A stretch of DNA of 38,091 nt from the NCBI GenBank assembly GCA_900316355.1, contig ONCQ01000023.1, positions 1-38,091 of the forward strand, given 5' to 3'. Origin of the DNA: an uncultured Prevotellaceae bacterium. Its GTDB lineage: Bacteria; Bacteroidota; Bacteroidia; Bacteroidales; Bacteroidaceae. Below, piece after piece: positions 15,508 through 37,328 of this stretch (within the stretch, counting starts at the first letter, position 1; each line of letters starts with the position of its first letter). The translations under genes were made by a program, and so were the position numbers. The notes below the pieces were generated by a model. The model had not been told where the DNA came from. It was given only the letters and a program-made list of their open reading frames with translations, and did not search any database.

Positions 15508-15587
15508 AACCCTTAGCACTTACGCCCTAAACCCTTAAGCCTTTTGCCACAAACCCTTAACGCTTTTTCTCTTTACCCTTAAGCCTT
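15508..15587. repeat. Imperfect heptanucleotide tandem repeat (AACCCTT type)
   Basis: About eleven units of seven bases, mostly AACCCTT, AAGCCTT or AACGCTT, with occasional one-base slips. It lies just downstream of the MATE gene on the minus strand. It belongs with the other heptad tracts in this window, which share the period of seven but not the sequence. Confidence 0.6.
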
Positions 15588-19410: not shown

Positions 19411-20742
19411 TTAACCGAGGAAACTCAGCAGGATACCTGCAGCGACAGCGGAGCCGATTACACCGGCAACGTTCGGCCCCATGGCGTGCATGAGAAGGAA
19501 GTTGCGCGGATTGGCCTTGGCGCCTTCGGCCTGTGAGACACGCGCGGCCATAGGCACGGCACTGACACCGGCAGAGCCGATGAGCGGGTTGATTTTCTCC
19601 TTCACGAACAGGTTCATGAACTTAGCCAGCAGCACGCCACCTGCGGTGCCCACACCGAAGGCGATGATGCCAAAGACCAGAATCTTGATGGTCTGTACGT
19701 TCAGGAAGGCCTCAGCGGTGGCGGTGGCGCCTACGGTGGTGCCGAGGAAGATGACGATGATGTTGTTCAGCTCGTTCTGTGCGGCCTTGCTCAGACGCTC
19801 CACGACACCGCTCTCCTTCATCAGGTTACCCAGCATCAAGCAGCCAATGAGGGTGGCAGCACTCGGCAGGATAAGGCTGACAATAATCGCCACGATGATG
19901 GGGAAGAGAATCTTCTCGCGCTTGCTGACCTCGCGCAGCTGCTTCATCTGGATCTTACGCTCCTTCTCGGTCGTCAGCGCACGCATGATGGGCGGCTGGA
20001 TAACGGGCACGAGTGCCATGTAGGAGTAGGCTGCCACGGCGATGGGGCCGAGGAGATGGGGAGCCAGTTTGGAGGTGAGGAAGATAGCCGTGGGGCCGTC
20101 AGCACCACCGATAATGCCGATGGAAGCGGCTTCTTTCATGTCGAAGCCCATGAAATCGAGCTGCATGAAGAGGAAGGTGGCGAAGATACCCAGCTGTGCG
20201 GCAGCGCCGAGCAGCAGGCTCTTGGGGTTGGCAATCAGCGGACCGAAGTCTGTCATGGCGCCTACGCCCAGGAAGATGAGACAGGGATAGACCCCCATCT
20301 TCACACCGATATACAGGATATCAAGCAAACCACCCTCAGCCACGATATGGCGATAGCTGTGGTAGTAGGGGCTTGAGGCATTCAGAAACTCATTGTTCCA
20401 CATCTCGGTGTGGAAGAGGCCTGCAGAGGGGATGTTGCTGAGCAGCATACCGAAGGCGATAGGCAACAGCAACAGCGGTTCGTACTCCTTCTTGATGGCC
20501 AGATAGAGCAACAGGCAGGCTATGCAGATCATCACTGCATTCTTCCAACCGTCGCCCACGAAGAAGCTTGTCAAGGCCATGTCATTCCAGAACTTCGTCA
20601 TCGCAGAGGCGAAGTCGAAGTCTTGGGCTTGAAGAGAAAGCGGGAGCATGAACAGCATGAGCAGCAGCAGACCCACCCCCCTGCCCCTCCCTTGTAGAGA
20701 GGGGAGTAAATACTCTCGCAGGTTGTTTATTATTCTATTCAT
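19411..20742 (-). CDS. mmdB: Na+-translocating methylmalonyl-CoA decarboxylase, beta subunit
   Basis: A 443-residue polytopic membrane subunit that decarboxylates the carboxybiotin carrier and pumps Na+ outward. The family signature [11 protein letters not shown] is present, with the Na+-pathway aspartate at residue 215; many hydrophobic helices follow and the end is GILLSFLG. It is the last gene of mmdA-mmdD-mmdC-mmdB and ends at a bidirectional terminator. The start is odd: the first 24 residues ([20 protein letters not shown] and on) are encoded by the right half of a palindromic element, fused to a hydrophobic stretch and SLQA|Q that looks like a signal peptide. The same element type gives MNRI...LLPSL to the PorE-like protein at 30882. 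An oxaloacetate decarboxylase beta subunit would look alike; the operon favours methylmalonyl-CoA. Confidence 0.93.
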
Positions 20743-20811
20743 TGTTTATTATTATTTCTGTTATTCAAAAGTAACCACTCCCTCCCTACAAGGGAGGGTG
20801 AGGGGTGGGTC
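20670..20811 (-). repeat. Paired palindromic element A (mmdC/mmdB junction)
   Basis: 142 bp with inverted ends (GACCCACCCC at 20670 and GGGGTGGGTC at 20811). Each half is itself a hairpin: CTCCC-TTGTA-GAGAGGGGAG on the left and CCCTCCC-TACAA-GGGAGGG on the right in plus orientation. It begins two bases after the mmdC stop codon and runs into the mmdB coding region, supplying its ATG and first codons. The interior is AT-rich and shares AATGAATAGAATA with element E. Confidence 0.85.
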
Positions 20812-20812
20812 T

Positions 20813-21571
20813 TTATGCTGTCTCTACCAGCGCTTGACCGCTCTGTACCTGATCGCCTACGGCTACCTTCACAGCGGTGACCTTACCACCGAACTCGGCG
20901 GTGATGTTGTTCTCCATCTTCATGGCTTCCATGACCACGACGGTGTCACCGGCAGCAATCTCCTGACCGACAGCTACACATACCTGCTTGATGGTGCCGG
21001 GCAGAGGAGCATCTACTGTGTGAGCACCAGCGGCAGGAGCTGCGGCAGCAGGAGCTGCAGCGGGTGCAGCCTTGGGGGCGGCTGCAGCGGGGGCGGCTGC
21101 GGGCTTCTGTGCAGGAGCCTGTGCAGGTGCTGTCTGAGGCACTGCCAGACCTTCGAAGTCCACGAGGGCATCGCCCTGGTTGACGCTGGCACCTACACCG
21201 ACGTGTACTTTACGCACGATGCCGTCGGCCTCGGCGGTGATGCTATTCTCCATCTTCATAGCTTCCATGGTGAGGAGCGTGTCGCCCTTCTTCACCTTGT
21301 CGCCTTCGCGAACGAGCACCTTGGTGATGGTGCCGGGCAGGGGAGCGGCTACAACGTTGGAGGCAACGGGAGCAGCAGCGATGGGTTTCGTGGCCACAGG
21401 AGCTGGAGCGGCAGCGTGGCTGATAACAGGACGCGGAGCCTGCTTCACGAGCTCAGGCACCTCCACGGAATACGTGGTGTCGTTGAGGGTGACGGCCAAC
21501 TTTCCGTCTTCCTGAGGAACCACGGTAGCCTTGATTTCTTTGCCGTCGATATTGAATTTGAATTCTTTCAT
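20813..21571 (-). CDS. mmdC: Biotin carboxyl carrier protein with two biotinyl domains
   Basis: A 252-residue biotin carrier of the decarboxylase; the lysine-bound biotin shuttles CO2 from MmdA to MmdB. Residues 1-40 resemble the usual N-terminal domain of this subunit (MKEFKFNIDGKEIKATVVPQ). A first biotinyl domain spans about 72-140, with the motif EAMKMEN and biotinylation Lys106. An Ala/Pro linker (142-183) leads to a second biotinyl domain (184-252), again EAMKMEN, with Lys218. Typical family members are about 120-145 residues with one domain, so this is a tandem duplication; the two copies have diverged in sequence. The ATG lies 6 bases from element B, whose purine-rich end occupies the ribosome-binding region. 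Confidence 0.95.
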   Translation of the reverse strand: MKEFKFNIDGKEIKATVVPQEDGKLAVTLNDTTYSVEVPELVKQAPRPVISHAAAPAPVATKPIAAAPVASNVVAAPLPGTITKVLVREGDKVKKGDTLLTMEAMKMENSITAEADGIVRKVHVGVGASVNQGDALVDFEGLAVPQTAPAQAPAQKPAAAPAAAAPKAAPAAAPAAAAPAAGAHTVDAPLPGTIKQVCVAVGQEIAAGDTVVVMEAMKMENNITAEFGGKVTAVKVAVGDQVQSGQALVETA

Positions 21572-21577
21572 GATTGC

Positions 21578-21717
21578 GGACCCCCTCCCCGCTCCCCCTG
21601 TAGGGGGAGAGTAGAATGTGTCTGACTATTGAGAGGTTATAGGGTCATTCTTTTAGATGTTTACTATTCTTGAATGGTAACCACCCCCTCCCTCACAGGG
21701 AAGGTGAGGGGAGGGCC
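21578..21717 (-). repeat. Paired palindromic element B (mmdD/mmdC junction)
   Basis: 140 bp filling the interval between the mmdD stop (21720) and the mmdC start (21571). Left end GGACCCCCTCCCCGCTCCCC; right end GGTGAGGGGAGGGCC. The halves carry hairpins CTCCCCC-TGTA-GGGGGAG and CCCTCCC-TCACA-GGGAAGG. The interior (21615-21680) is AT-rich and contains GAGTAGAATGT and GGTAACCACCCC, which recur in element C. Confidence 0.88.
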
Positions 21718-21719
21718 TT

Positions 21720-22049
21720 TTACAGGTGCTTGTTCAGCTCGGCATGCCAGAGCGGATGGTCGGAATGGTGAATGGTGATGATGCCACTCTCTTCGTCGTG
21801 GCGGCCCTGCATATAGAGATAGACGGCCGTGGCGATGGCAGCATTGCGTGTGTTCTCGGCAATCTCCTCTTTCTCCACCACGTTCTTCACGGCCTCCACA
21901 CCCGTCAGCACTTTGTCACGCGTCTTGCGCGTCACGGTGCTGAAGATGGAGAGGACGAAGAAGAGCACGATAAGAATTACGAAGACCGTACCGATGCCCA
22001 GTCCTGTCATCAGCCATACAGTGGACCAGTTGGTTGTTAGGATTGTCAT
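21720..22049 (-). CDS. mmdD: Methylmalonyl-CoA decarboxylase small membrane subunit (OadG/MmdD type)
   Basis: A 109-residue protein with one N-terminal transmembrane helix (about residues 14-37, MTGLGIGTVFVILIVLFFVL). A charged region and a C-terminus in which most positions follow the OadG pattern come next. It is thought to hold the alpha and beta subunits together in the pump. It starts 12 bases after the mmdA stop, so it is co-transcribed and probably coupled. Position between mmdA and the biotin carrier is typical for Bacteroidales. Confidence 0.88.
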   Translation of the reverse strand: MTILTTNWSTVWLMTGLGIGTVFVILIVLFFVLSIFSTVTRKTRDKVLTGVEAVKNVVEKEEIAENTRNAAIATAVYLYMQGRHDEESGIITIHHSDHPLWHAELNKHL

Positions 22050-22061
22050 AGGGCGGAAGGT

Positions 22062-23633
22062 TTAAAGAGGAATATTACCGTGCTTCTTTGCGGGATTCGT
22101 CAGACGCTTGTCAGCGAGCTGCGAGAGTGCGCGGATGATGCGGAAACGTGTGTTGCGCGGCTCGATGACATCGTCGATGTAGCCGTACTTGGCAGCGTTG
22201 TAGGGGTTGGCGAAGAGCTTGGTGTATTCGGCCTCCTTCTCGGCGATGAACTCCTTAGCAGCCTCGGGACCTTTCTCCTCCTTGATGGCCTTGGCCTCCT
22301 TGGCATAGAGGACAGCGGCAGCGCCGGCAGCACCCATCACAGCAATCTCAGCTGAGGGCCATGCATAGTTCATGTCGCCACGCAGCTGCTTGCAGCTCAT
22401 CACGATGTGCGAACCGCCGTAGCTCTTGCGCAGCGTCACGGTCACCTTGGGCACTGTGCACTCGCCGTAGGCGTAGAGCAGCTTGGCGCCATGCAGGATG
22501 ACAGCGTTGTACTCCTGACCCGTACCGGGCAGGAAGCCGGGGACATCCACGAGGGTGACGATAGGAATATTGAAGGCGTCGCAGAAGCGCACGAAGCGGG
22601 CACCCTTACGCGAAGCGTTGCAGTCGAGCACACCTGCCAGCTGCTTGGGCTGGTTGGCTACGATACCCACACTTTCACCGTTGAAACGGGCGAAGCCTAC
22701 GATGATGTTCTTGGCGAAGTTAGGCTGCACCTCGAAGAACTCACCGCCGTCCACGATGCTGGCGATGACCTCGTACATGTCGTAAGGCATGTTGGGGTTG
22801 TCGGGGATGATTTCGTTGAGGTAGTCGTCCTTGCGGTCGATGGGGTCTGTGCACTCCACGCGCGGGGTCTTCTCCAGATTGTTCTGGGGGATGTAGCTAA
22901 GCAGCTGCTTAAGCATAGCCATAGCCTCCTCCTCCGTCTTGGCGGTGAAATGGGTCACACCGGACTTGGTGGAGTGTACGCTGGCGCCACCCAGTTCCTC
23001 TTGAGTCACCACTTCGCCCAAGACGGTCTTCACCACGGCGGGGCCAGTGAGGAACATATAGGATGTGCCTTCCATCATCAGCGTGAAGTCGGTGAGAGCG
23101 GGGCTATAGACGGCGCCACCGGCACAGGGACCGAAGATACCGCTAATCTGAGGAATCACACCGCTGGCCATGATGTTACGCTGGAAGATTTCAGAGTAAC
23201 CGGCCAGAGCGTTGATGCCCTCCTGAATGCGAGCGCCACCAGAGTCATTCAAACCGATGACGGGAGCACCCACCTTCATGGCGTCGTCCATCACCTTGCA
23301 AATCTTCTGAGCCATCGTCTCGCTGAGAGAGCCGGCATTGACTGTGAAGTCCTGAGCGAAGACATAGACTAGGCGACCGTCTATCGTACCGTAACCAGTC
23401 ACTACGCCGTCGCCCATGTACTGCTTCTTCTCCATGCCGAAGTTGTGGCAGCGATGTGTTACGAACATGTCCATCTCCTCGAAGCTGCCGGCATCGAGCA
23501 ACATGTCGATGCGCTCACGAGCCGTGTATTTACCACGTTCGTGCTGCTTCTCAATGGCCTTCTCGCCGCCACCCATGCGGGCTTTGGCGCGGAGCTCAAT
23601 CAGCTCCTGGATTCTTTCTGTTTGCTTGCTCAT
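22062..23633 (-). CDS. mmdA: Methylmalonyl-CoA decarboxylase carboxyltransferase subunit (PccB/MmdA family)
   Basis: A 523-residue cytoplasmic carboxyltransferase that moves the carboxyl group of (S)-methylmalonyl-CoA to biotin, leaving propionyl-CoA. Family signatures: [65 protein letters not shown] and a C-terminal [14 protein letters not shown]. The length is normal. The propionyl-CoA carboxylase beta subunit is nearly identical in pattern; the decarboxylase reading rests on the linked OadG- and OadB-type genes and the absence of a biotin carboxylase. First gene of the mmdADCB operon; all downstream junctions except mmdA/mmdD contain palindromic elements. Confidence 0.95.
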
Positions 23634-23676
23634 TGCAATTGCGATTATTGATAATTTGTTGATAATATTGTTTCAC

Positions 23677-23717
23677 AAAAAAGCCGCCTTCGAGCCCCTT
23701 CATGGACTAAAGGCGGC
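23677..23717 (-). promoter_or_regulatory. Terminator-like hairpin in the mmdA leader
   Basis: On the minus strand, 8-bp arms GCCGCCTT/AAGGCGGC (23710-23717 and 23683-23690) are followed by six T residues. It lies between the predicted -7 box and mmdA, so it could be a leader attenuator. It could also be a second terminator for the mutAB transcript. Initiation inside the upstream arm would leave only about five base pairs, weakening the attenuator reading. Confidence 0.55.
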
Positions 23718-23718
23718 G

Positions 23719-23726
23719 CAAAGTTA
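23719..23726 (-). promoter_or_regulatory. Possible -7 box of the mmdADCB operon
   Basis: TAACTTTG on the minus strand, about 85 bases upstream of mmdA. At the -33 position only TTTCG is present, so the match is partial. No better candidate lies between the mutB terminator and mmdA. Confidence 0.5.
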
Positions 23727-23751
23727 CACATTATATATTTATTAACGAAAA

Positions 23752-23772
23752 ATGGAAAGTGAAAAATGAGGT
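23752..23772. repeat. Short heptanucleotide repeat upstream of mmdA
   Basis: Three seven-base units (ATGGAAA, GTGAAAA, ATGAGGT), with a possible slipped fourth, immediately upstream of the presumed promoter. The R-TGAAA pattern resembles the heptads inside the MATE gene. Confidence 0.4.
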
Positions 23773-23780
23773 AATGAAAC

Positions 23781-23820
23781 AAAAAAACAGTTGCAATGAG
23801 CAGCTTGCCCATTGCAACTG
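23781..23820 (-). terminator. Terminator of mutAB
   Basis: Perfect 11-bp hairpin CAGTTGCAATG/CATTGCAACTG (23788-23798, 23810-23820) followed by seven T residues on the minus strand, 28 bases after the mutB stop codon. It separates mutAB from mmdADCB. Confidence 0.92.
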
Positions 23821-23847
23821 AGAATAATGTGGTGTGCAAAAGGATGA

Positions 23848-26013
23848 TTATTCCTTGCCGAGCAAGAGCTTCATCATCTCACAGGCAGCCTTAGCCACGC
23901 TGGTGCCAGGACCGAAGACGGCGGCAACACCAGCCTTGTAGAGGAAGTCGTAGTCCTGAGCGGGGATGACACCGCCGGCGATGACCATGATATCCTCGCG
24001 GCCGAGCTTCTTGAGCTCTTCGATGAGCTGCGGGATGAGGGTCTTGTGACCTGCTGCCAAAGAGGAGGCACCGACGATGTTGACGTCGTTCTCCACAGCT
24101 TCGCGAGCTGCCTCGGCGGGCGTCTGGAACAAGGGGCCCATATCAACGTCGAAGCCGCAATCGGCATAGCCGGTGGCAACGACCTTTGCGCCGCGGTCGT
24201 GACCGTCCTGACCCATCTTGGCAACCATGATACGAGGACGACGGCCCTCCTGCTTTGCGAACTCTTCGGTGAGGCGGCAGGCTTCCTCGAAGTCCTTGTC
24301 GCTCTTGCTTTCTGAACTATACACGCCTGAAATGGTTCTGATGACTGCTTTGTAACGGCCCACGACAGCTTCGCAGGCATCGCTGATTTCGCCGAGGGTG
24401 GCACGGTGGCCGGCGGCGGTGACGGCGAGGTCGAGGAGGTTGTGCTCGCTCTTCTTGCCATCGGCGAACTCCTGCACGCAGGCGGTGATGGCAGCGAGGT
24501 CCTTCTTGACCTGCTCGTTGTCGCGCTTGGCACGGAGTTCCTTCAGGGACTCCTCCTGCTGCAGACGCACGGCGGTGTTGTCCACCTCGAGGATGTCGAT
24601 GGGGTCCTCGTGCTCGAGGCGGTACTTGTTCACACCCACGATGGTCTGCACACCCGAGTCGATGCGCGCCTGGGTGCGGGCAGCAGCCTCCTCGATACGC
24701 ATCTTGGGCAGACCCGTCTCGATGGCCTTGGCCATGCCGCCGAGCTTCTCAATCTCCTGGATGTGCTCCCAAGCCTTGAGGTAGAGTTCCTGCGTCAGCT
24801 TCTCGACGTAGTAGGAACCAGCCCACGGGTCGATGTGCTTGCAGACCTGCGTCTCGTTCTGGATGTAGATCTGGGTGTTACGGGCGATGCGTGCGCTGAA
24901 GTCGGTAGGCAGTGCGATGGCCTCGTCGAGGGCGTTGGTGTGGAGCGACTGGGTGTGACCCAGCACGGCAGCCATCGCCTCGATGCAGGTACGTCCGACG
25001 TTGTTGAAGGGATCCTGCTCGGTCAGCGACCAACCGGAAGTCTGGGAGTGCGTACGCAGAGCCATGGACTTCGGGTTCTTGGCGCCGAAGCTCTTGACAA
25101 TCTTAGCCCAGAGCAGACGGCCTGCACGCATCTTGGCAATCTCCATGAAGTGGTTGACACCAATAGCCCAGAAGAAGCTGAGGCGCGGTGCGAAGGCGTC
25201 CACGTCGATGCCGGCGTTGATACCTGCGCGGAGGTAGTCCATACCATCGGCCAGCGTGTAAGCCAGCTCGATGTCGGCGGTGGCACCTGCTTCCTGCATG
25301 TGGTAGCCAGAGATGGAGATGCTGTTGAACTTAGGCATCTTCTGCGAGGTGTACTCGAAGATGTCGGCGATAATCTTCATGGAGAAGGCGGGCGGGTAAA
25401 TATAGGTGTTGCGCACCATGAACTCCTTGAGGATATCGTTCTGAATGGTACCGGCCATCTCCTCGAGCTTGGCGCCCTGTTCCAGACCTGCGTTGATGTA
25501 GAAGGCCAACACGGGCAGCACGGCACCGTTCATGGTCATGGAGACGGACATCTTGTTCAAGGGAATGCCTGCGAAGAGGACCTTCATGTTCTCTAAGGAG
25601 CAGATGCTCACACCGGCCTTACCTACGTCACCGACCACACGGGCGTTGTCGGGGTCGTAGCCACGGTGTGTGGGCAGGTCGAAGGCCACGGAAAGACCCT
25701 TCTGACCGCTGGCGAGGTTACGACGATAGAAAGCGTTGGACTCCTCGGCGGTGGAGAAACCGGCGTACTGACGGATTGTCCACGGGCGGAACGGGTACAT
25801 CATGCTGTACGGGCCACGGAGGAAGGGAGGAATACCGGCGGCGAAGTTCAGGTGCTCCATGCCTTCGAGGTCTTCCTTCGTATAAACGGGCTGAATATCA
25901 ATCTGCTCAGGAGTCTTCCAGTTGGCAGTGATGCCATTCTCCTTTTGCCAGTCAAGGCCATTCTTGGCGTCTATGCCAGCAAAAATATCAATGTTTGAAA
26001 AGTTATGTTTCAT
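23848..26013 (-). CDS. mutB: Methylmalonyl-CoA mutase, large (catalytic) subunit
   Basis: A 721-residue adenosylcobalamin enzyme that interconverts succinyl-CoA and (R)-methylmalonyl-CoA, cytoplasmic, working as a heterodimer with MutA. The N-terminal CoA-binding barrel holds family motifs ([48 protein letters not shown]). The C-terminal cobalamin domain (about 590-721) has the cobalt-ligand motif DGHDRG with His605, then SSLAAGH and AGGVIP. Length is normal for the family. It follows mutA in the same operon, separated by palindromic element C, and ends at a strong terminator. With mmdADCB it forms the core of succinate-to-propionate fermentation. Confidence 0.97.
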
Positions 26014-26017
26014 AATC

Positions 26018-26162
26018 GGACCCCCTCCCCGCTCCCCCTTGTAGGGGGAGAGTAGAATGTCTTGTGGGGAGGAATTCTACATGTAATGATTCTTAATTAT
26101 AAATAGGTCTATTCTTGTTAAGTAACCACCCCCTCCCTACAAGGGAGGGTGAGGGGAGGGTC
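26018..26162 (-). repeat. Paired palindromic element C (mutA/mutB junction)
   Basis: 145 bp between the mutA stop (26166) and the mutB start (26013), leaving only 3-4 free bases at each side. Left end GGACCCCCTCCCCGCTCCCC, right end GGTGAGGGGAGGGTC. The hairpins are CTCCCCC-TTGTA-GGGGGAG and CCCTCCC-TACAA-GGGAGGG. It is nearly the same as element B at both ends, with a more divergent AT-rich interior. Confidence 0.9.
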
Positions 26163-26165
26163 TTC

Positions 26166-28031
26166 TTATTGGATGCCCAGTTTCGCATTAAGTTCCTTGA
26201 GGGTCTTTAATTGATCCACACGGACGTGGATGAAGTTCTCGATGCCGGCGGCCTTGAGGTCTTCTGAGCAAGCGGGAGCGCCTGCGATGATGAAGATGGC
26301 CTTGGGGTCGGCAGCCTTGAGGGCATTGAAGGCGGGAACGCCATAGTCGGCGTATTCGTCGTCGCTGGAGCAGAGCACCACGATGTCGGCACCGGCCTTG
26401 ACAGCAGCCTCAACACCTTCCTCCACGGTTGGGAAGCCGAGGTTGTCGATGACCTTGTAACCAGCAGCAGCGAGGAAGTTGCAGGAGAACTGTGCGCGAG
26501 CCTGACGCATGGCGAGGTTGCCGATGGTCAGCATGAAGGCAATGGGCTGCTTGGCAGCCTTCTCCGTCGTCAGGCGCAGGGTCTCGAAGTCGGAAGCGAG
26601 ACGGCTGGTCTGCAGAGCGGGCACGTCGGCATCGCCGGAGTGCTTGCAGGTGCAGTCGCAGGCGAGCGGCTCTTTGCCTTCGCTCGTCTCGGTGAAGTTC
26701 GGGAACTGGTTGGTGCCCAGCAGGAACTCCTTACGCTTGCCGGCGTTGGCGTGACGAGCCTTGTCGGTGTCGTTGATGGCCTGCTGGATGGTACCGGCCT
26801 TGACGGCGGCGAGGAAACCACCCTCTTCCTCAACGGCGAGGAACAGCTTCCAGCCTTCCTTGGCGATGGCCACAGTCAGTTCCTCCACGAAGTAGGAACC
26901 GCCACTGACATCGACAATCTTATCGAAGTGGCACTCCTCCTTCAGCAGCAGCTGCTGATTGCGGGCGATGCGCTCGGCGAAGTCCGTGGGCACCTCGTAG
27001 GGAGCGTCAAACGGAGTAACCACCATCGAGTGGATGCCGGCGAGGGCAGCACTCATGGCCTCGGTCTGCGAGCGAAGCATGTTCACGTAGGAGTCGAAGA
27101 CCGTCTGGTTGTAGGTCGTCGTAGCAGCGTTGATGCACATCTGGCAAGCGCAGTCGCACTTGGGCTCATACTGCTTCACAATCTGTGCCCACAGCATACG
27201 GGCAGCGCGGAACTTGGCAATCTCCATGAAGTAGTTGCCGCCGACGCCCATGTAGAACTTGATCTTCTTAGCAGCGAGGTCAACGGGAACGCCAGCCTCC
27301 ACCATCTCGTCAAGGTATTCCTTACCCCAAGCGAGGGCATAGCCGAGCTCCTGATAGACGTAAGCACCGCTGTTGCAGAGCAGGTCGCTGTGCACCATCA
27401 CGCAACGCAGGTTGGGGAAGTCCTTCAGCTTCTCGACCAACTTGGGCATGTCGGGCAGCAGCATGGTGGTGTCCTTGCCCTTCATGAGCATACGCTCGAT
27501 GGGGTCGAAGCCGATGCCGCCGACAATCTTTTCCTTGTCGTAGCCCTTCTTCTCGTAGTAGGCTACCACGATGTCGGCCAGTTCGAGGACGTGGCGCTGA
27601 CAGGTGCGGAAGCTCACCTCGATGCAGTCGCAGCAAATGCCGTCGAGCAGCGTCTCGATGAACTCGGCGCTCACCTTGTCGCCGGGGATGCGGAAACCGA
27701 GGGAGTTGACGCCCTTGTTCAGGATGTCGAGCGCCTTGGCGTTGGCTGCCTTAGCGTCGTCGGCCTTGATGTTCTGACGGACATACCACTGGTTGTTGTC
27801 CTTCTTGTTGCCGCGTACGAAGGGGAATTCGCCAGGCAGCGCGTTGACGGTTGCCAGCTTGTCCACATCTTCCTTCAAATAGAACGGCTGCATGGAGAAA
27901 CCTTCGTTGGTTCTCCAGACCATTTTCTTCTCGTAGTCAGCGCCCTTGAGATCAACTTCGATCTTGTCGCGCCATTCCTGGCGGGTAGGGGCGGTGAAGT
28001 CCGCGAAGAGTTTTTCTTTACTATCTGCCAT
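26166..28031 (-). CDS. mutA: Methylmalonyl-CoA mutase, small subunit
   Basis: A 621-residue non-catalytic partner of MutB. It begins with FADFTAPTRQEWRDKIEVDL and keeps the barrel pattern (YFMEIAKFRAARMLWAQIVK). The C-terminal cobalamin-like domain lacks the DxHxxG cobalt ligand (about residues 525-621, AAAGYKVIDNLGFPTVEEGV), as is normal for small subunits. First gene of the operon, with a clear promoter. The leader just before the ATG consists of AT-rich heptamers. Confidence 0.96.
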   Translation of the reverse strand: MADSKEKLFADFTAPTRQEWRDKIEVDLKGADYEKKMVWRTNEGFSMQPFYLKEDVDKLATVNALPGEFPFVRGNKKDNNQWYVRQNIKADDAKAANAKALDILNKGVNSLGFRIPGDKVSAEFIETLLDGICCDCIEVSFRTCQRHVLELADIVVAYYEKKGYDKEKIVGGIGFDPIERMLMKGKDTTMLLPDMPKLVEKLKDFPNLRCVMVHSDLLCNSGAYVYQELGYALAWGKEYLDEMVEAGVPVDLAAKKIKFYMGVGGNYFMEIAKFRAARMLWAQIVKQYEPKCDCACQMCINAATTTYNQTVFDSYVNMLRSQTEAMSAALAGIHSMVVTPFDAPYEVPTDFAERIARNQQLLLKEECHFDKIVDVSGGSYFVEELTVAIAKEGWKLFLAVEEEGGFLAAVKAGTIQQAINDTDKARHANAGKRKEFLLGTNQFPNFTETSEGKEPLACDCTCKHSGDADVPALQTSRLASDFETLRLTTEKAAKQPIAFMLTIGNLAMRQARAQFSCNFLAAAGYKVIDNLGFPTVEEGVEAAVKAGADIVVLCSSDDEYADYGVPAFNALKAADPKAIFIIAGAPACSEDLKAAGIENFIHVRVDQLKTLKELNAKLGIQ

Positions 28032-28040
28032 AGTAAGTTA

Positions 28041-28075
28041 AATGTTTAATGTTTGAATATTTAAGGTTTTTAATC
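28041..28075. repeat. AT-rich heptanucleotide repeat in the mutA leader
   Basis: On the minus strand four seven-base units, AAACCTT, AAATATT, AAACATT and AAACATT, with one extra base, end nine bases before the mutA ATG. This is the stretch where ribosomes of Bacteroidota prefer A-rich sequence. Confidence 0.5.
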
Positions 28076-28086
28076 TAAAATGCGGA

Positions 28087-28118
28087 CAAAGGTAAGCAAG
28101 TTTGTCGGAGCGGCCAAA
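28087..28118 (-). promoter_or_regulatory. Promoter of mutAB
   Basis: TACCTTTG (28087-28094, minus) with TTTG (28115-28118) 20 bases upstream. The upstream box abuts a GC-rich inverted repeat. Confidence 0.78.
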
Positions 28119-28147
28119 TTTGCGCGCCGAAAACTTCGCGCGCGAAT
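28118..28147. repeat. Inverted repeat overlapping the mutA -33 box
   Basis: Ten-base arms ATTTGCGCGC and GCGCGCGAAT (one G-T pair) with a 10-base loop. It lies downstream of the phosphoesterase gene and touches the mutA promoter. It could be that gene's terminator (but no T run follows) or an operator. Confidence 0.4.
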
Positions 28148-28168
28148 CTCTTTTTCAGTTATTTTATA

Positions 28169-28672
28169 TTATTCGGGCTCACTTCGGGGGATTTCGATGA
28201 CCTCAAGATCACGAAAAACGCCCTCTTCGACCGTTACGCGCACAAGGGTTCGCACCTGATGCCAACCTTGCAGGCCGGCAGCTCCCGGATTGATGTGCAG
28301 CAGGCCAAGTGTTTTGTCATACTGTACCTTGAGGATATGGCTATGCCCACAGACAAACAACTTGGGCGGACGCGCAAATAGTTGATTGCGGATGCTCCAG
28401 TCATAGTGGCCTGGGTAGCCGCCGATATGCGTCATCAAGACATCTGCGCCCTCACAATTCCAACGCAACAGCTTGGGAAACATGCGTCGCAGGTCGCCAC
28501 CGTCGCAGTTGCCAACCACGGCACGCAGAGGCTTGAAGGCGGCGAGGCGGTCAGCCAGCTCCGTGCTGCCGATGTCGCCTGCATGCCATATCTCATCACA
28601 GGATTCAAAATACCGCAGATAGCGGTCATCCCAATAAGCATGGGTGTCTGAAAGGATTCCGATGCGTTTCAT
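28169..28672 (-). CDS. YfcE/MJ0936-type metallophosphoesterase
   Basis: A 167-residue cytoplasmic phosphodiesterase. All metal-binding motifs are present: SDTH (Asp9, His11), HAGD (Asp33), GNCD (Asn55, Asp57), THIGG (His82) and CGHSH (His110, His112), ending with INPGAAG. The physiological substrate of this family is generally unknown. I chose the ATG at 28670-28672 because the conserved fold begins there (MKRIGILSDTH) and an in-frame ATG 27 bases upstream lies beyond the presumed -7 box. It is a single gene, divergent from topB. Confidence 0.9.
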   Translation of the reverse strand: MKRIGILSDTHAYWDDRYLRYFESCDEIWHAGDIGSTELADRLAAFKPLRAVVGNCDGGDLRRMFPKLLRWNCEGADVLMTHIGGYPGHYDWSIRNQLFARPPKLFVCGHSHILKVQYDKTLGLLHINPGAAGLQGWHQVRTLVRVTVEEGVFRDLEVIEIPRSEPE

Positions 28673-28676
28673 GGCG

Positions 28677-28684
28677 CAAAGATA
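28677..28684 (-). promoter_or_regulatory. -7 box of the metallophosphoesterase gene, close to its start codon
   Basis: TATCTTTG on the minus strand ends only four bases before the ATG. Transcription would then start at or within a few bases of the start codon, implying a leaderless or nearly leaderless mRNA. No -33 box is seen at 19-20 bases. Confidence 0.4.
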
Positions 28685-28721
28685 AGGATTATTTGACAAA
28701 AGAGAACGCCGATAGTCAAAA

Positions 28722-28756
28722 ACTTGAAACTTTCAACCCTAAACTCTAAACTTTTT
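28722..28756 (+). repeat. Heptanucleotide repeat upstream of topB
   Basis: Five seven-base units: ACTTGAA, ACTTTCA, ACCCTAA, ACTCTAA, ACTTTTT. The tract ends three bases before the topB -7 box and occupies the place where the -33 box should be. Confidence 0.65.
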
Positions 28757-28759
28757 CAC

Positions 28760-28767
28760 TACCTTTG
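28760..28767 (+). promoter_or_regulatory. -7 box of topB
   Basis: TACCTTTG, 35 bases before the chosen topB ATG. It lies downstream of the first in-frame ATG (28724), which argues against that longer start. No TTG is present at the usual -33 distance. Confidence 0.6.
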
Positions 28768-28801
28768 TCGCCAAATTGAATCTAAAGCACAACGACAGCA
28801 C

Positions 28802-30793
28802 ATGATTGTTTGTATTGCGGAGAAACCCTCTGTGGCGCGTGACATAGCCAAAGTTCTTGGGGCAACCAACGACCGTGGCGGTTTTATTGAGGGGAACGGC
28901 TATCAGGTCACTTGGACCTTCGGTCACCTGTGTGAACTGAAGGAACCCCACGAGTATTCCCCGATGTGGAAGACCTGGAGCTTGTCACAGCTACCGATGA
29001 TCCCGTCACGCTTCGGCATCAAGCTGAAAGAGGACAAAGGCGTGGAAAAACAGTTTGCCATCATCGAGAAACTGATGCAGGCGGCAGACAGCATCATCAA
29101 CTGCGGCGATGCCGGTCAGGAAGGTGAACTCATACAGCGATGGGTCATGCAGAAGGCCGGAGCAAAATGTCCCGTGCAGCGGCTGTGGATTAGCTCGCTG
29201 ACCGAAGAGGCCATCCGCGAAGGCTTTCAAACGCTCAAGGACCAGCGGGAATACCAAAGCCTCTATGAAGCCGGACTCTGCCGCGCCATCGGCGACTGGA
29301 CACTGGGCATGAACGCTACGCGCCTCTACACGCTCAAATATGGACAGCAACGACAGGTGCTCAGCATCGGACGTGTGCAGACGCCAACCCTGGCACTGAT
29401 CGTCAACCGCCAGCATGAGATTGATAATTTCAAGCCTGAAACCTACTGGGTGCTAACCACGAAGTACCGTGACACCGTCTTCACCGCCGTGATGGAAGAA
29501 GGTGATCGCGGCTTCAAGACGCAGGAAGATGGAGAGAAGGCACTGGCCGCCATCCGCGAATTGCCGTTCACCGTCACCAGCGTGGAGAAAAAGGCGGGAA
29601 AGGAGGCCGCACCACGCCTCTTCGACCTCACCTCGCTGCAGGTGGAATGCAACAAGAAGTTCGGCTACACGGCAGAGCAGACGTTGGGGCTCATCCAAAG
29701 CCTTTATGAGAAGAAGGTGGCCACCTACCCTCGTGTCGATACCACCTTCTTGCCTGATGACATCTACCCCAAATGTCCGCAGATACTGGCCTCGATGACG
29801 CCCTATGCCAATTTCATCCAGCCCCTGTTGGCCAACGGTAAGCCCTTGTTGAAGAACAAGAAGAATGTCTTTGACAGCAGCAAGGTCACCGACCACCATG
29901 CCATCATACCCACCTCGGTACCTGTCACGACCGTTCCTCTGACCAATTTCGAGAAGCGCGTCTATGATATCATTGCGCGCCGTTTCATCGGAGTTTTTTA
30001 CCCCGACTGCAAGTTCGAACAGACCACTGTATTGGGAGAAGTTAGACCCACCCCCAACCCCTCCCGTGATGGAGGGGAGCAGGCTGGCGCGCAGCCTTCG
30101 AGCGATAGCGAGGCTCTCCCCCTCACGGGGGAGCGGGGAGAGGGTCTTCTTTTCAAAGCCACCGGCAAACGCATCACCGACCCCGCATGGCGCGTCCTTT
30201 GGGAAAAGAAGAAACCCGCAACACCCACCGACTCTCCCATTACGGTTCCCGAGGGTTCTCCCGAGGGCTCTTCTGAGGGTTCTCCCGAGGGCTCAGAAGA
30301 CGCCCCCGACACCGAACGCTCCTTACCCGCTTTCAAAAAGGGCGAGAGTGGCCCCCATGAACCCAACCTGGCAGAAAAACAAACCACACCACCGAAGCCT
30401 TACACCGAAGCCACCCTCCTGCGTGCCATGGAGACAGCAGGCAAACTCGTTGAGGACGACGAGCTACGCGATGCCCTTAAAGAAAATGGCATCGGGCGCC
30501 CCTCCACGCGAGCGGCTATCATCGAGACGCTCTTCAAACGGCAATACATCCGACGAGTGCGAAAGAGCATAGCCCCCACACCCACTGGCATCGAACTCAT
30601 CGGTCTCATTCACGAGGAACTGCTAAAAAGTGCCGAGCTCACCGGCATTTGGGAGAAGAAACTGCGACAAATCGAACATCACGAATATGATGCCAAGACC
30701 TTCATCGAAGAGCTGAAACAGATGGTGTCCGACATCGTTTTGGCCGTGATGCAGGACAATAGCAACCGCCACGTTGCGGCCTCCGGGCAATAA
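28802..30793 (+). CDS. topB: DNA topoisomerase III with two in-frame repeat insertions
   Basis: A 663-residue type IA topoisomerase that relaxes and decatenates DNA. The Toprim domain begins MIVCIAEKPSVARDI (Glu7) with the acidic motif CGDAGQEGELI (Asp103, Glu107). The active-site tyrosine is Tyr309 in ATYPRVDT. Later conserved stretches are YTEATLLRAMETAGKL and LKENGIGRPSTRAAIIETLF. The start at 28802 is preferred because it begins the Toprim fold and follows the -7 box. Two stretches are foreign to the family: residues about 415-449 (palindromic element D, PTPNPSRDGGEQ...LPLTGERGEG) and about 480-498 (VPEGSPEGSSEGSPEGSE). Both lie in a loop between conserved segments, and the frame is intact, so the enzyme is probably active. 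Confidence 0.95.
   Translation: MIVCIAEKPSVARDIAKVLGATNDRGGFIEGNGYQVTWTFGHLCELKEPHEYSPMWKTWSLSQLPMIPSRFGIKLKEDKGVEKQFAIIEKLMQAADSIINCGDAGQEGELIQRWVMQKAGAKCPVQRLWISSLTEEAIREGFQTLKDQREYQSLYEAGLCRAIGDWTLGMNATRLYTLKYGQQRQVLSIGRVQTPTLALIVNRQHEIDNFKPETYWVLTTKYRDTVFTAVMEEGDRGFKTQEDGEKALAAIRELPFTVTSVEKKAGKEAAPRLFDLTSLQVECNKKFGYTAEQTLGLIQSLYEKKVATYPRVDTTFLPDDIYPKCPQILASMTPYANFIQPLLANGKPLLKNKKNVFDSSKVTDHHAIIPTSVPVTTVPLTNFEKRVYDIIARRFIGVFYPDCKFEQTTVLGEVRPTPNPSRDGGEQAGAQPSSDSEALPLTGERGEGLLFKATGKRITDPAWRVLWEKKKPATPTDSPITVPEGSPEGSSEGSPEGSEDAPDTERSLPAFKKGESGPHEPNLAEKQTTPPKPYTEATLLRAMETAGKLVEDDELRDALKENGIGRPSTRAAIIETLFKRQYIRRVRKSIAPTPTGIELIGLIHEELLKSAELTGIWEKKLRQIEHHEYDAKTFIEELKQMVSDIVLAVMQDNSNRHVAASGQ
30045..30146 (+). 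repeat. Paired palindromic element D, in-frame inside topB
   Basis: 102 bp, exactly 34 codons. Left half GACCCACCCCCAACCCCTCC with hairpin CCCTCC-CGTGAT-GGAGGG; right half with hairpin CTCCCCC-TCAC-GGGGGAG, ending GGGGAGAGGGTC. The centre contains CTTCGAGCGATAGCGAGG, also present beside the half element in cysQ. No stop codon occurs in the topB frame. Confidence 0.92.
30241..30294 (+). repeat. GTTCCCGAGGG repeat inside topB (EGSPEGS coding)
   Basis: A 12-base periodicity (TTCTCCCGAGGG and variants, about four units) encodes VPEGSPEGSSEGSPEGS. The first 26 bases are nearly identical to sequences in the DUF349 gene (34665) and in the spacer before cysQ (36515). Confidence 0.8.
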
Positions 30794-30826
30794 ATAGAGA
30801 GGTGCGTGCGTTATATAAAAGTGAAA

Positions 30827-30950
30827 GGACCCACCCCTCACCCCTCCCGTAATGGAGGGGAAAGTCCTCTATAATTCGCAAATGAATAGAATAGTTGCTA
30901 CTTTTCGCCAGCTGCTCCCCTCCCTAATGGGAGGGGTTTGGGGGTGGGTC
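30827..30950 (+). repeat. Paired palindromic element E (topB/PorE-like junction)
   Basis: 124 bp from GGACCCACCCCTCACCCC to GGGGTTTGGGGGTGGGTC. The hairpins are CCCTCC-CGTAAT-GGAGGG and CTCCC-TAAT-GGGAG. It starts 33 bases after the topB stop. The downstream ATG and first 23 codons lie inside the element, and the interior shares AATGAATAGAATA with element A at the same relative position. Confidence 0.9.
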
Positions 30951-34508: not shown

Positions 34509-36509
34509 ATGACTGAAACCAACGAGCTGCAGCCTATCCCCGAAGTGGAAGCTGCAGAAGTAGAAGCAACGCAGGCGCCCGTCGCAGAAGCAGAACCCCC
34601 AACCGAGACGCCAGCCGTAGAAGAAAACATTTCCGTTCCCGAGGGTTCCCCCGTTACCATTCCCGAGGGTTCTCCCGAGGGCTCCCCCGAGGACTCCCAA
34701 CCCGTTCACCCCCTCTATGAGACCAAGGAACAGGTCGTGGACCGCCTCCGCGAGATACAAGCCGAGGACAATGGCGGTGACCGCAGTGAATTAGACTTGC
34801 TCAAGCAAGCTTTCTATAAATTACACAAAGCAGCGCAGATAGCAGCGCGCAATGCTTTCTTAGAGGCTGGCGGACAGCCGGAAGACTGGCATGCCGAAGT
34901 GGATGGCGCCGAAGAGAACTTCAAGGCCATCATGGCCTCCATACGTCAGCGCCGTGCACAACTCGCCGAGGAGGCTGAGAAGTTGAAGGCGGCCAACCTC
35001 AGCCGCAAGCTCGATATCATCGAGCGTATCAAGGAGCTCGCCACGTCACCAGAGGAAGCCAACGCACATTTCGATGAATTCAAGCAGCTGCAGGCCGCGT
35101 GGAAAGAGACGGGCGCCGTACCCGCAGAACGTGCTACCGAGGTGTGGAAGAACTATCAGCTCTATGTGGAGCAGTTCTATGACCTTCTGAAACTCAACAG
35201 TGAAGCACGCGAGTACGACTTCAAGAAGAACCTCACCGCTAAAGAACGACTCATCGAGCTTGCCGAGAAACTCGTTGATGAGGAGGACATCATCGCTGCC
35301 TTCAACAAGTTGCAGGCGCTGCACGCCGAATACAAAGAAATAGGGCCCGTGGCTAAGGAGTTACGTGAGGATGTCTGGAACCGCTTCAAGGCTGCCAGCA
35401 CTGTCATCAACAAGCGCCATCAGGAGCACTTCGAGGCCATCAAGGCTCGTGAAGATGAATGTCTGCAACAGAAGACAGCTCTCTGCGAACAGGCTGAAAG
35501 CATACAGACAGATGACATCACCACCTTCGCTGCTTGGGAAGAAAAGACCAAGGAAGTAATTGAGCTCCAAGCCCAATGGAAAGAGATAGGATTCGCCGGC
35601 CACAAGCAGAACAATATCATCTTTGACCGCTTCCGCTCGGCTTGCGACCGCTTCTTCTCTGCCAAGGCAGAATATTTCCGGAATATCAAGGATGAGCAGA
35701 ACGGAAACCTCGAAGCCAAGCGCAAACTGGCAGAGGAGGCTGAGGCTCTGAAAGACAGCACTGAATGGAGCAAGACTGCTAAGAAACTCATAGAGCTGCA
35801 AAAGCGTTGGAAAGAGGTAGGCCCCGTTCCCCGCAAGTACAGCGAGCAGTTGTGGAAGCGCTTCACAGAGGCTTGCGACCATTTCTTTGAAGCTAAGAAT
35901 GCTGCAGGTGCAGACCAGCGCGCTGAAGAGACCGCAAACATGGAGGCAAAGAGAGCAATTATTGAACAGCTCAAGGAGCTGGCTACTGATGCTGCTAATG
36001 CCACTATCGATAAGGTCAAGGAACTGCAGGCACAGTGGAATGAAATCGGGCATGTACCCTTCCGCGATAAAGACAAGCTCTATAAGGAATACCGTGCAGT
36101 GGCAGACGAGCTCTACAAACAGTTCGGCGCAAGTCAGGCACGCCGTCGCCTCGAAGGCTTCCAGAAGAGCGTGCGCCAAGCTGTGGCCAAGGGTGAGAGC
36201 ACACTGGGCCGCGAGCGCGAGCGCCTCATGCGCATCTTCGAAGCACGCAAGGCTGAGGTGCAGACCTATGAGAACAACCTTAATTTCCTCAATGCCACCA
36301 GCAAGAGTGGCAACAGCCTCGTTGCGGAGATGAACCACAAGGTGGAGAAGCTGCGCGAGGAACTCGATCTCCTGAGCCAGAAGATTAAGGCCGTCGAAGC
36401 CGAGATGCGTGCCCCTAAAGCCAGCCCCGAAGCTCCTGCAACTCCTGCGGCTCCCGAAGCTCCTTCTGCTCCCACTACCGCCGACGAAGCCGCTCCCGCT
36501 GACAACTAA
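34509..36509 (+). CDS. DUF349-repeat coiled-coil protein
   Basis: A 666-residue, highly charged, mostly helical soluble protein without signal peptide. Five DUF349 signatures are visible: LQAAWKETGAVP, LHAEYKEIGPVA, LQAQWKEIGFAG, LQKRWKEVGPVP and LQAQWNEIGHVP, between about residues 195 and 520. A C-terminal coiled coil (about 560-640) and an Ala/Pro tail follow. The function of the family in Bacteroidota is unknown. The N-terminal 75 residues are acidic and low-complexity; residues 41-64 are encoded by the GTTCCCGAGGG repeat and read VPEGSPVTIPEGSPEGSPED, matching the insert in TopB. Confidence 0.9.
   Translation: MTETNELQPIPEVEAAEVEATQAPVAEAEPPTETPAVEENISVPEGSPVTIPEGSPEGSPEDSQPVHPLYETKEQVVDRLREIQAEDNGGDRSELDLLKQAFYKLHKAAQIAARNAFLEAGGQPEDWHAEVDGAEENFKAIMASIRQRRAQLAEEAEKLKAANLSRKLDIIERIKELATSPEEANAHFDEFKQLQAAWKETGAVPAERATEVWKNYQLYVEQFYDLLKLNSEAREYDFKKNLTAKERLIELAEKLVDEEDIIAAFNKLQALHAEYKEIGPVAKELREDVWNRFKAASTVINKRHQEHFEAIKAREDECLQQKTALCEQAESIQTDDITTFAAWEEKTKEVIELQAQWKEIGFAGHKQNNIIFDRFRSACDRFFSAKAEYFRNIKDEQNGNLEAKRKLAEEAEALKDSTEWSKTAKKLIELQKRWKEVGPVPRKYSEQLWKRFTEACDHFFEAKNAAGADQRAEETANMEAKRAIIEQLKELATDAANATIDKVKELQAQWNEIGHVPFRDKDKLYKEYRAVADELYKQFGASQARRRLEGFQKSVRQAVAKGESTLGRERERLMRIFEARKAEVQTYENNLNFLNATSKSGNSLVAEMNHKVEKLREELDLLSQKIKAVEAEMRAPKASPEAPATPAAPEAPSAPTTADEAAPADN
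34631..34700 (+). repeat. GTTCCCGAGGG repeat inside the DUF349 gene
   Basis: Two starts of the unit (CCGTTCCCGAGGGTTC at 34633 and ATTCCCGAGGGTTCTCCCGA at 34659), followed by further CCCGAGG copies. The reading frame is the same as in topB, giving (V/I)PEGSPEGSP. Confidence 0.8.
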
Positions 36510-36510
36510 T

Positions 36511-36537
36511 TACCGTTCCCGAGGGTTCTCCCTCGGG
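36511..36537. repeat. GTTCCCGAGGG repeat between the DUF349 gene and cysQ
   Basis: Non-coding copy TACCGTTCCCGAGGGTTCTC that ends in CCCTCGGG, making a perfect 8-bp hairpin with a 4-base loop (36518-36525, 36530-36537). It starts at the DUF349 stop codon and ends about 14 bases before cysQ. Confidence 0.75.
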
Positions 36538-36551
36538 CAATCCTCCCCACC

Positions 36552-37328
36552 ATGATGAAAGATTTACTGGATATCGCTATTCGCGCCTCGCTCGCCGCGG
36601 GGCGCGATATTCTTTCTATCTATAACGATCCCGCTGCCGACTTCGGCATCGAACGGAAGGCCGACAACTCACCCCTCACACGCGCTGACAAAGCCGCCCA
36701 TCAGCGCATCATGAGCTTCCTGGAGCCTACAGGCATACCAGTCCTCAGTGAGGAGGGCGCCCACCTACCCTATGAGGAACGTCGCCACTGGCAACGCCTC
36801 TGGATTGTTGACCCCTTAGACGGCACCAAGGAGTTCATTAAGCGTAACGGTGAGTTCACCGTTAACATCGCTCTCGTAGAGAACGGCACCCCTGTCCTCG
36901 GCGTCATCTATGTGCCCGTCACAGGCACTATCTACTACGGCGAAACCGGCGAAGGGGCATGGAAAAAGGTCCTTTCGAGCGATAGCGAGGCCCTCCCCCT
37001 AACAGGGGAGCGGGGAGAGGGTCTTCCCTTCACCGTTGTAGCCTCCCGCAGCCACCTCTCACCCGAGACCGAAGCCTTCATCAACGACCTGCGTCGTGAG
37101 CACCCGGACCTCGAGTTGGTATCATCAGGCAGCAGTCTCAAGATTTGCCTCGTTGCCGAGGGGAAGGCCGACATATATCCGCGACATGCCCCCACCATGG
37201 AATGGGACACTGCAGCAGGACATGCCATCGCCATCGCTGCAGGCCATGAGATGGTGGATGCCACAACGGGGAAGACCCTCACCTACAACAAGGAAGACCT
37301 CCACAATCCCTGGTTCATCGTCCGCTGA
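36552..37328 (+). CDS. cysQ: 3'(2'),5'-bisphosphate nucleotidase CysQ with in-frame repeat insertion
   Basis: A 258-residue inositol-monophosphatase-fold enzyme that hydrolyses 3'-phosphoadenosine 5'-phosphate. The metal-binding motifs are intact: LSEEG, WIVDPLDGTKEFI and MEWDTAAGHAIA. Residues about 141-158 (SSDSEALPLTGERGEGLP) are encoded by a half copy of the palindromic element. They lie in a surface loop between the GEGAWK strand and VVASRSHL, where relatives have a short variable loop. The ATG at 36552 or the next codon (36555) may be the start. It probably shares a transcript with the downstream gene, 12 bases away. Confidence 0.94.
   Translation: MMKDLLDIAIRASLAAGRDILSIYNDPAADFGIERKADNSPLTRADKAAHQRIMSFLEPTGIPVLSEEGAHLPYEERRHWQRLWIVDPLDGTKEFIKRNGEFTVNIALVENGTPVLGVIYVPVTGTIYYGETGEGAWKKVLSSDSEALPLTGERGEGLPFTVVASRSHLSPETEAFINDLRREHPDLELVSSGSSLKICLVAEGKADIYPRHAPTMEWDTAAGHAIAIAAGHEMVDATTGKTLTYNKEDLHNPWFIVR
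36973..37023 (+). repeat. Half palindromic element F, in-frame inside cysQ
   Basis: 51 bp, exactly 17 codons: TTCGAGCGATAGCGAGG followed by hairpin CTCCCCC-TAACA-GGGGAG and the end GGGGAGAGGGTC. It matches the right half of element D in topB almost base for base and is read in the same frame (SSDSEALPLTGERGEG in both). Confidence 0.9.

Follow-up and report, generated by a model that had tools for sequence, protein, structure and literature searches.

The window analyzed here, a stretch of 38,091 nucleotides from an uncultured Prevotellaceae bacterium (contig ONCQ01000023.1 of assembly GCA_900316355.1), carries five elements built of paired palindromes, which we regard, with a probability of about 60%, as members of a family of non-autonomous mobile palindromes in a genus of rumen Bacteroidota, resembling the repetitive extragenic palindromic (REP) doublets forming hairpins that are known as REPINs. 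By its architecture this family is REPIN-like; it departs from REPs in its failure to keep to extragenic places and in that no gene for a REP-associated tyrosine transposase (RAYT) flanked by the repeat was found at its TnpA-REP-like loci, and it is without the GTAG or CGTC tag. As far as sequences go, genome comparison establishes its dispersal, its patchy distribution, the existence of empty sites, the outward pairing of its halves, and its placement in or beside the translated DNA of operons.

The five elements, hereafter E1 to E5, lie at positions 20670–20811, 21579–21717, 26019–26162, 30045–30146, and 30828–30950, practically where the original prediction had placed them, and they follow the common plan of paired palindromes that it proposed, with stop-to-start gaps filled by elements such as E2 and E3. 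Each half opens on its outer side with GACCC or GACTC, continues with a C-rich run and a CCCTCCC–loop–GGGAGGG type of hairpin, and closes on its inner side with, for example, GAGTAATTACC or GGCTGGCGCG; such a hairpin half takes up roughly 35–48 nt, and two inverted halves form an element of about 90–240 bp. The outer end had been proposed to read GACCC(A/T)CCCC, which is exact in six of the ten arms, the other four deviating from it (e.g., GACCCCCTCCCC, GACCCTCTCC, and GGCCCTCC). With at most one mismatch allowed, this end motif occurs 13 times in the window, when shuffled sequences give a mean of 4.57 and none of 100 shuffles reaches 13. A known RNA family was dismissed, the window having no Rfam match at gathering score.

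High Copy Number and Outward Pairing

The prediction of a dispersed family, as opposed to a sequence with few further copies or one conserved locally by descent, is borne out by the abundance of the repeat. A single element used as query found at least 107 matching pieces in the window's own genome (best 40 of 86 candidates scored), and a model of the half found at least 153 matches (best 150 of 1,587 candidates scored). In a sample of 1.24 Mb out of the 3.16 Mb of this genome, we counted 51 pairs and 41 solo halves (E ≤ 0.01), and the five most frequent 14-mers of the sample are, by eye, all members of the family. Within an 838-kb set of stretches, the half profile gave 188 matches at E ≤ 5, overlapping matches included, against none in the reversed sequence, and a refined profile gave 207 matches at E ≤ 10 against two, which amount to 141 halves once overlaps are removed. 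Local sequence conserved by descent is dismissed by this copy number, together with the empty sites presented below.

Among 82 cases of neighboring halves no more than 300 nt apart, 77 have their ends facing outward and one has them facing inward. The family has both the inverted doublets of a palindromic unit at short spacing and the high copy number that characterize REPINs and REPs. In 40 listed pairs (44 minus the four weakest), the outer ends are, by eye, GACCC, GACTC, or near variants of these. As for the interiors, some copies are alike in diverged ones (72–77% over the full length), a 102-nt form with a common interior is represented by five intragenic copies in the own-genome sample, and many others are dissimilar to one another. 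These terminal inverted repeats of the form GACCC...GGGTC, the size range of 90–240 bp, and the interiors shared by several copies or by the 102-nt form are what would be expected of a miniature inverted-repeat transposable element, that is, of an ordinary DDE-type insertion sequence shortened by deletion. We nevertheless find such an origin unlikely, as no direct repeat of 2–9 nt that could be a target-site duplication stands out in the flanks of 40 pairs beyond the element's own ends, many interiors are dissimilar, and in at least two genes the interior is native sequence; no parent element was found either, although this search covered HUH genes only.

Across genomes, the distribution of the family is patchy. 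The number of halves per genome ranges, in 25 genomes of the genus, from zero (four genomes) to 149 (best 150 candidates scored); in other families of the order, one of 16 genomes carries halves (four of them), and in a family-wide draw of 81 genomes from 30 genera, nine genomes, belonging to five genera, gave matches. Nothing in the plasmid set matched the 102-nt element, and nothing in the phage set matched E5. In the own genome (locus L002, 2530–2680), a diverged pair whose ends read AGCCCC, located upstream of a gene that by eye is methionyl-tRNA-synthetase-like and read as the N-terminus MNNQQSPKVTSNPLPLGGG..., hints at older subfamilies.

Filled and Empty Sites

The junction between the small- and large-subunit genes of methylmalonyl-CoA mutase measures 152 nt with E3 in the own genome, when it measures 2–28 nt and holds no element in 11 of the 13 congeners examined and is occupied by unrelated sequence of 503 and 642 nt in the remaining two (15 of 30 loci were looked at, of which that of G026, from another family, gave no clear reading, and one of the 11 empty sites, that of G007, was read by eye). 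On this comparison, E3 arrived together with its interior. At the sites of four more junction copies, a relative shows gaps of 7–16 nt, and the site of one copy, empty in G015, holds a different palindromic sequence in G003. Since several sites are empty in relatives, the elements are, on this comparative evidence, insertions, mobile in appearance. The two long mutase junctions (L196 of G014, 642 nt, and L197 of G002, 503 nt) seemingly hold small complete genes, by eye of the GxxExxY type and of the four-helix-bundle type.

Placement Relative to Genes and Stop Codons

Placement was analyzed in 88 pairs from three genomes, with gene calls from our own hexamer caller, whose start codons, and hence the residual gaps, are uncertain. 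Fifty-eight of these pairs lie between co-directional genes, 27 lie in frame in genes, and the last three fall in a convergent gap, a divergent gap, and a contig edge. Junctions inside operons, where the original prediction had put the family, are thus a common location, but the prediction misses the intragenic pairs, one of the five window elements (that at 30045) included. Co-directional gaps make up 78.6% of all junctions and cover 68% of the intergenic bases, and the pairs are in excess there (P = 8e-5 and 4e-8); considered alone, the convergent and divergent deficits have P = 0.011 and 0.008, respectively, when junctions are counted and P = 0.003 and 3e-5 when bases are.

At 38 of the 58 co-directional junctions, the element's upstream end falls within −1 to +6 nt of the stop codon, which lies further inside the element at 13 others and more than 6 nt off at the remaining seven. 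The downstream end is looser, with 15 copies ending 0–16 nt before the called start, 20 ending past it, and 23 further off, and the residual gap is below 50 nt in 46 of the 58 junctions. This closeness to the stop codon is partly forced by the tightness of the gaps, which however leaves unexplained the scarcity of pairs in wide ones: 493 co-directional gaps of at least 100 nt are without a pair, against five pairs. Because wide co-directional gaps, as well as convergent and divergent gaps, hold few pairs, the family, in contrast to REPs, is seldom met with in untranslated DNA. Nor does it have the mainly extragenic location of REPINs and REPs, given the intragenic pairs (27/88) and the junction copies that contain the stop codon (13/58). 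None of the 29 copies situated 0–6 nt after a stop codon follows TGA (P = 0.003 given 18% TGA, a baseline taken from non-overlapping gaps of 0–29 nt), an avoidance on which we do not build.

Hairpins at such positions could be kept for setting the output of neighboring genes, either through local hairpins and an arm-to-arm stem acting as alternative mRNA structures or through a hairpin that, just after the stop codon, slows termination or re-initiation. The proposal that the halves fold alone or pair with each other agrees with computed folding, both states being favorable, at −53 to −77 kcal/mol with long-range pairing against −41 to −48 kcal/mol with pairs of no more than 45 nt (energies without shuffle control), so that a junction switching between two mRNA structures is possible. 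The many junction copies that begin at −1 to +6 nt (38/58) also favor a role of this kind, and REPs close after stop codons reportedly lower translation in Escherichia coli. Still, the mutase site is empty in most congeners examined, coding sequence, in which passing ribosomes would open the hairpins, holds 27 of the 88 pairs, and the asymmetric subtype has no orientation bias at junctions (4 vs. 4), a split that speaks against a designed RNA role; overall, we doubt that the elements are retained as tuners of gene expression. Eight early asymmetric copies had suggested that orientation relative to transcription is fixed, an idea dropped in view of the same four-to-four split, the asymmetric copies inside genes being oriented one way in six cases out of six.

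Insertions in Protein-Coding Genes

The 27 pairs located within called genes are inserted in frame, after the manner of Rickettsia palindromic elements, and encode linkers rich in Pro, Gly, and Ser (e.g., RPTPNPSRDGGE...ALPLTGERGEGL). Of the proteins named here, TopB, CysQ, UvrA, and the mutase were identified by search, PyrG by eye from conserved ortholog sequence, and MutL, IleS, FeoB, a lyase-like protein, and the other intragenic hosts by eye. In TopB, the insert encoded by E4 sits where the alignment to solved topoisomerases breaks and falls between two predicted strands; its predicted local distance difference test score (pLDDT) is below 50, and the model, of poor quality as a whole (mean pLDDT 57.2), was used only locally. 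Most of 80 named relatives have a short version of this loop; a scan of 22 of these 80 named topB loci located family halves in the topB region of L104, L105, and L123. An alignment (A4) comprised 18 topB sequences. In the near relatives L104 and L105, this loop contains inserts that belong to a subtype other than that of E4, and in L103 and L106 it contains none, so that it has probably been entered more than once. At the sites of other intragenic copies, relatives have a loop of roughly similar length. UvrA of the own genome contains two pairs and at least one solo half; that its interior might be native sequence was an idea formed by eye, to which a search against solved structures added nothing and which we do not count as shown. 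All in all, the inserts would seem to be mostly tolerated and not needed.

The case of PyrG differs in that two arms, identical over their first 35 nt, occupy two separate loops, about 160 nt apart, on either side of the conserved stretch NVIDLMSEQK...GGTMRLG. Neither arm is present in any of the 17 other aligned genomes, and the one-arm state is absent from them as well, other extra residues being found at both arm sites in G015 and at one in G001. Likewise, in the lyase-like gene, the protein of a relative aligns with the stretch between the arms and leaves separate gaps of 17 and 18 residues. PyrG of G000, G015, and G003 (L323, L324, and L327) further has different inserts in two other loops, at about residues 131 and 300, which are short in most other genomes.

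Identical arms that enclose native sequence would be understandable if the pairs grew stepwise, a single half inserting on its own and an inverted partner arising nearby later, through template switching or through homogenization of a second half. The commonness of solo halves (41 in the own-genome sample) would fit such a course, as would the likeness of arms within pairs, which exceeds all 2,000 permutations in G000 and G003. We nonetheless judge it highly unlikely: template switching predicts inward pairs too, when a single inward pair is seen against 77 outward ones within 300 nt, E3 came with its interior, arm likeness in G015 remains within the permuted range, and no single-arm PyrG occurs among the 18 genomes compared. 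PyrG might alternatively reflect a mobile palindrome that enters in a manner tied to translated RNA, with one event placing two identical inverted hairpins around host coding sequence. Such a coupling is suggested by the near-exclusive occurrence of the copies at sites that ribosomes traverse or at which they stop (in-frame loops, N-termini, or positions a few nucleotides from TAA or TAG), and we see it as a rather improbable mode of entry.

A Candidate Motor and the Weight of the Evidence

If the family consists, as we favor, of REPIN-like mobile palindromes, its copies would be spread by an enzyme acting in trans, perhaps a HUH (TnpA-REP-like) transposase of the genome, and would survive where translation crosses the palindrome or stops right before it. 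The filter that we favor is that ribosomes would cover the strong hairpin and thereby prevent operon expression from being cut. As ribosome cover leaves the scarcity in non-transcribed gaps unexplained, a target preference may act in addition. The own genome has TnpA-REP-like HUH genes at eight places (12 profile matches). A survey of HUH proteins mentions a subclass, mostly of Bacteroidetes and of possible relevance here, in which atypical structures flank the genes and recur at other places of the genome (PMC6006769). At six TnpA-REP-like loci of the own genome, high-copy 14-mers in the 400-nt flanks were found at one, where they belong to a different repeat, and no RAYT gene flanked by the family's own repeat was found at TnpA-REP-like loci, other RAYT groups not having been sought.

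Several points weigh against the mobile-palindrome account. The TnpA-REP-like family matches are weak and mostly under curated cut-offs, and although their number follows that of halves among the 25 congeners (rho 0.66, p = 3e-4), this correlation ignores kinship and combines half counts from the best 150 candidates scored with incomplete genomes. A family half occurs within 500 nt of a TnpA-REP-like gene in 2 of 21 loci, and within 300 nt in none. Ribosome cover alone fails to explain the scarcity in convergent and divergent gaps, just as the simple insertion of one unit fails to explain the arms that bracket native sequence in PyrG and the lyase-like gene. Finally, several of 24 flank comparisons are unclean, their targets holding another insert or a stretch of similar length, and mobility is read indirectly, from compared sequences. 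With a correlation and no close flanking, we set aside the idea that the TnpA-REP-like protein is a proven motor. One such protein (L031, 1255–2589) itself has in-frame repeats (GDESKAR units), another sign of tolerance in coding sequence.

Relation to Known Palindromic Repeats

The bacterial interspersed mosaic elements of enterobacteria are inverted palindromes joined by a linker that occur in operons, are extragenic, and are frequent at convergent gene ends. Our family shares their inverted operon palindromes and, going by this general picture, differs from them in sequence and placement. The likeness to the REPINs of Pseudomonas extends to inverted palindrome pairs in high copy number, a spacer of lower conservation, the occurrence of singlets, and a hairpin spanning the pair, when the differences lie in the sequence, the many copies in coding sequence, and the fact that no closely flanking RAYT gene was found (PMC3116915). 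With the REPs tagged by GTAG or CGTC (PMC3733652), the family has in common close palindromes in opposite orientation, of which some are intragenic. CGTC repeats are reported there from Bacteroidetes, and uvrA is said to be hit twice by REPs in some species, a double insertion paralleled by the two pairs of the own-genome UvrA (PMC3733652). The outer ends, however, are GACCC or GACTC here and not GTAG or CGTC, and whereas tagged REPs are placed by the same report mainly between unidirectional and convergent genes, one of our 60 classified junction copies is convergent (PMC3733652). Rickettsia palindromic elements are similarly palindromic repeats in frame in protein genes (PMC3733652), but our elements are mostly inverted pairs, are also packed against operon stop codons, and, to judge by no more than the reported CGTC ends, are unrelated in sequence. 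A limited literature search brought up no title or abstract describing this family, which is weak evidence of absence.

If this reading is true, the family would be one of mobile palindromes that belongs to neither of the REP superfamilies described so far, inserts linkers into core proteins (here TopB, PyrG, and UvrA), and keeps close to stop codons. With detected halves ranging from none to more than 140 among congeners, filled sites can be compared with empty ones, so that it would become testable what a hairpin after a stop codon costs, how well protein loops tolerate inserts, and how the repeat spreads. A practical caution is that an insert rich in Pro and Gly in a protein of Bacteroidota may turn out to be a repeat instead of a domain.

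Elements and Other Repeats of the Window

E1, an inverted pair, lies between a biotin-carrier gene and an oadB-like gene, both on the minus strand, the latter identified by Pfam/NCBIfam; its second arm, in mRNA sense, falls within the N-terminal open reading frame of the oadB-like gene, provided that the upstream ATG is used. E2, likewise an inverted pair, fills the junction of an oadG-like gene, whose match is under its curated cut-off, and the biotin-carrier gene, its upstream end being 2 nt after the stop codon. E3, the inverted pair of the mutase junction discussed above, is followed by E4, the 102-nt form inside topB, in frame (RPTPNPSRDGGEQAGAQPSSDSEALPLTGERGEGL), and by E5, an inverted pair between topB and a gene for a PorE-type lipoprotein, of which the second arm is read as part of the lipoprotein N-terminus. 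At the junction after topB in a relative (L104), a second arm is likewise read as the N-terminus of a PorE-type lipoprotein (MNLINPSTRQQLPSLYGRGWGWV...). A half copy, E6, at about 36974–37023, lies in frame inside cysQ and is related to the right part of E4, the stretch 36974–37032 being 92% identical to 30097–30155; in the cysQ homologue 3b8b, the loop in this stretch differs, and there is no sign of a net insertion.

The window also contains a second repeat, CCCGAGGG with GGTTCTCCCGAGGGCTC, at 30238–30294, 34628–34708, and 36508–36564, in coding tails and junctions, and, at 15508–15587, a 22-nt spaced repeat that starts with AACCCTTA and occurs three times in tandem.

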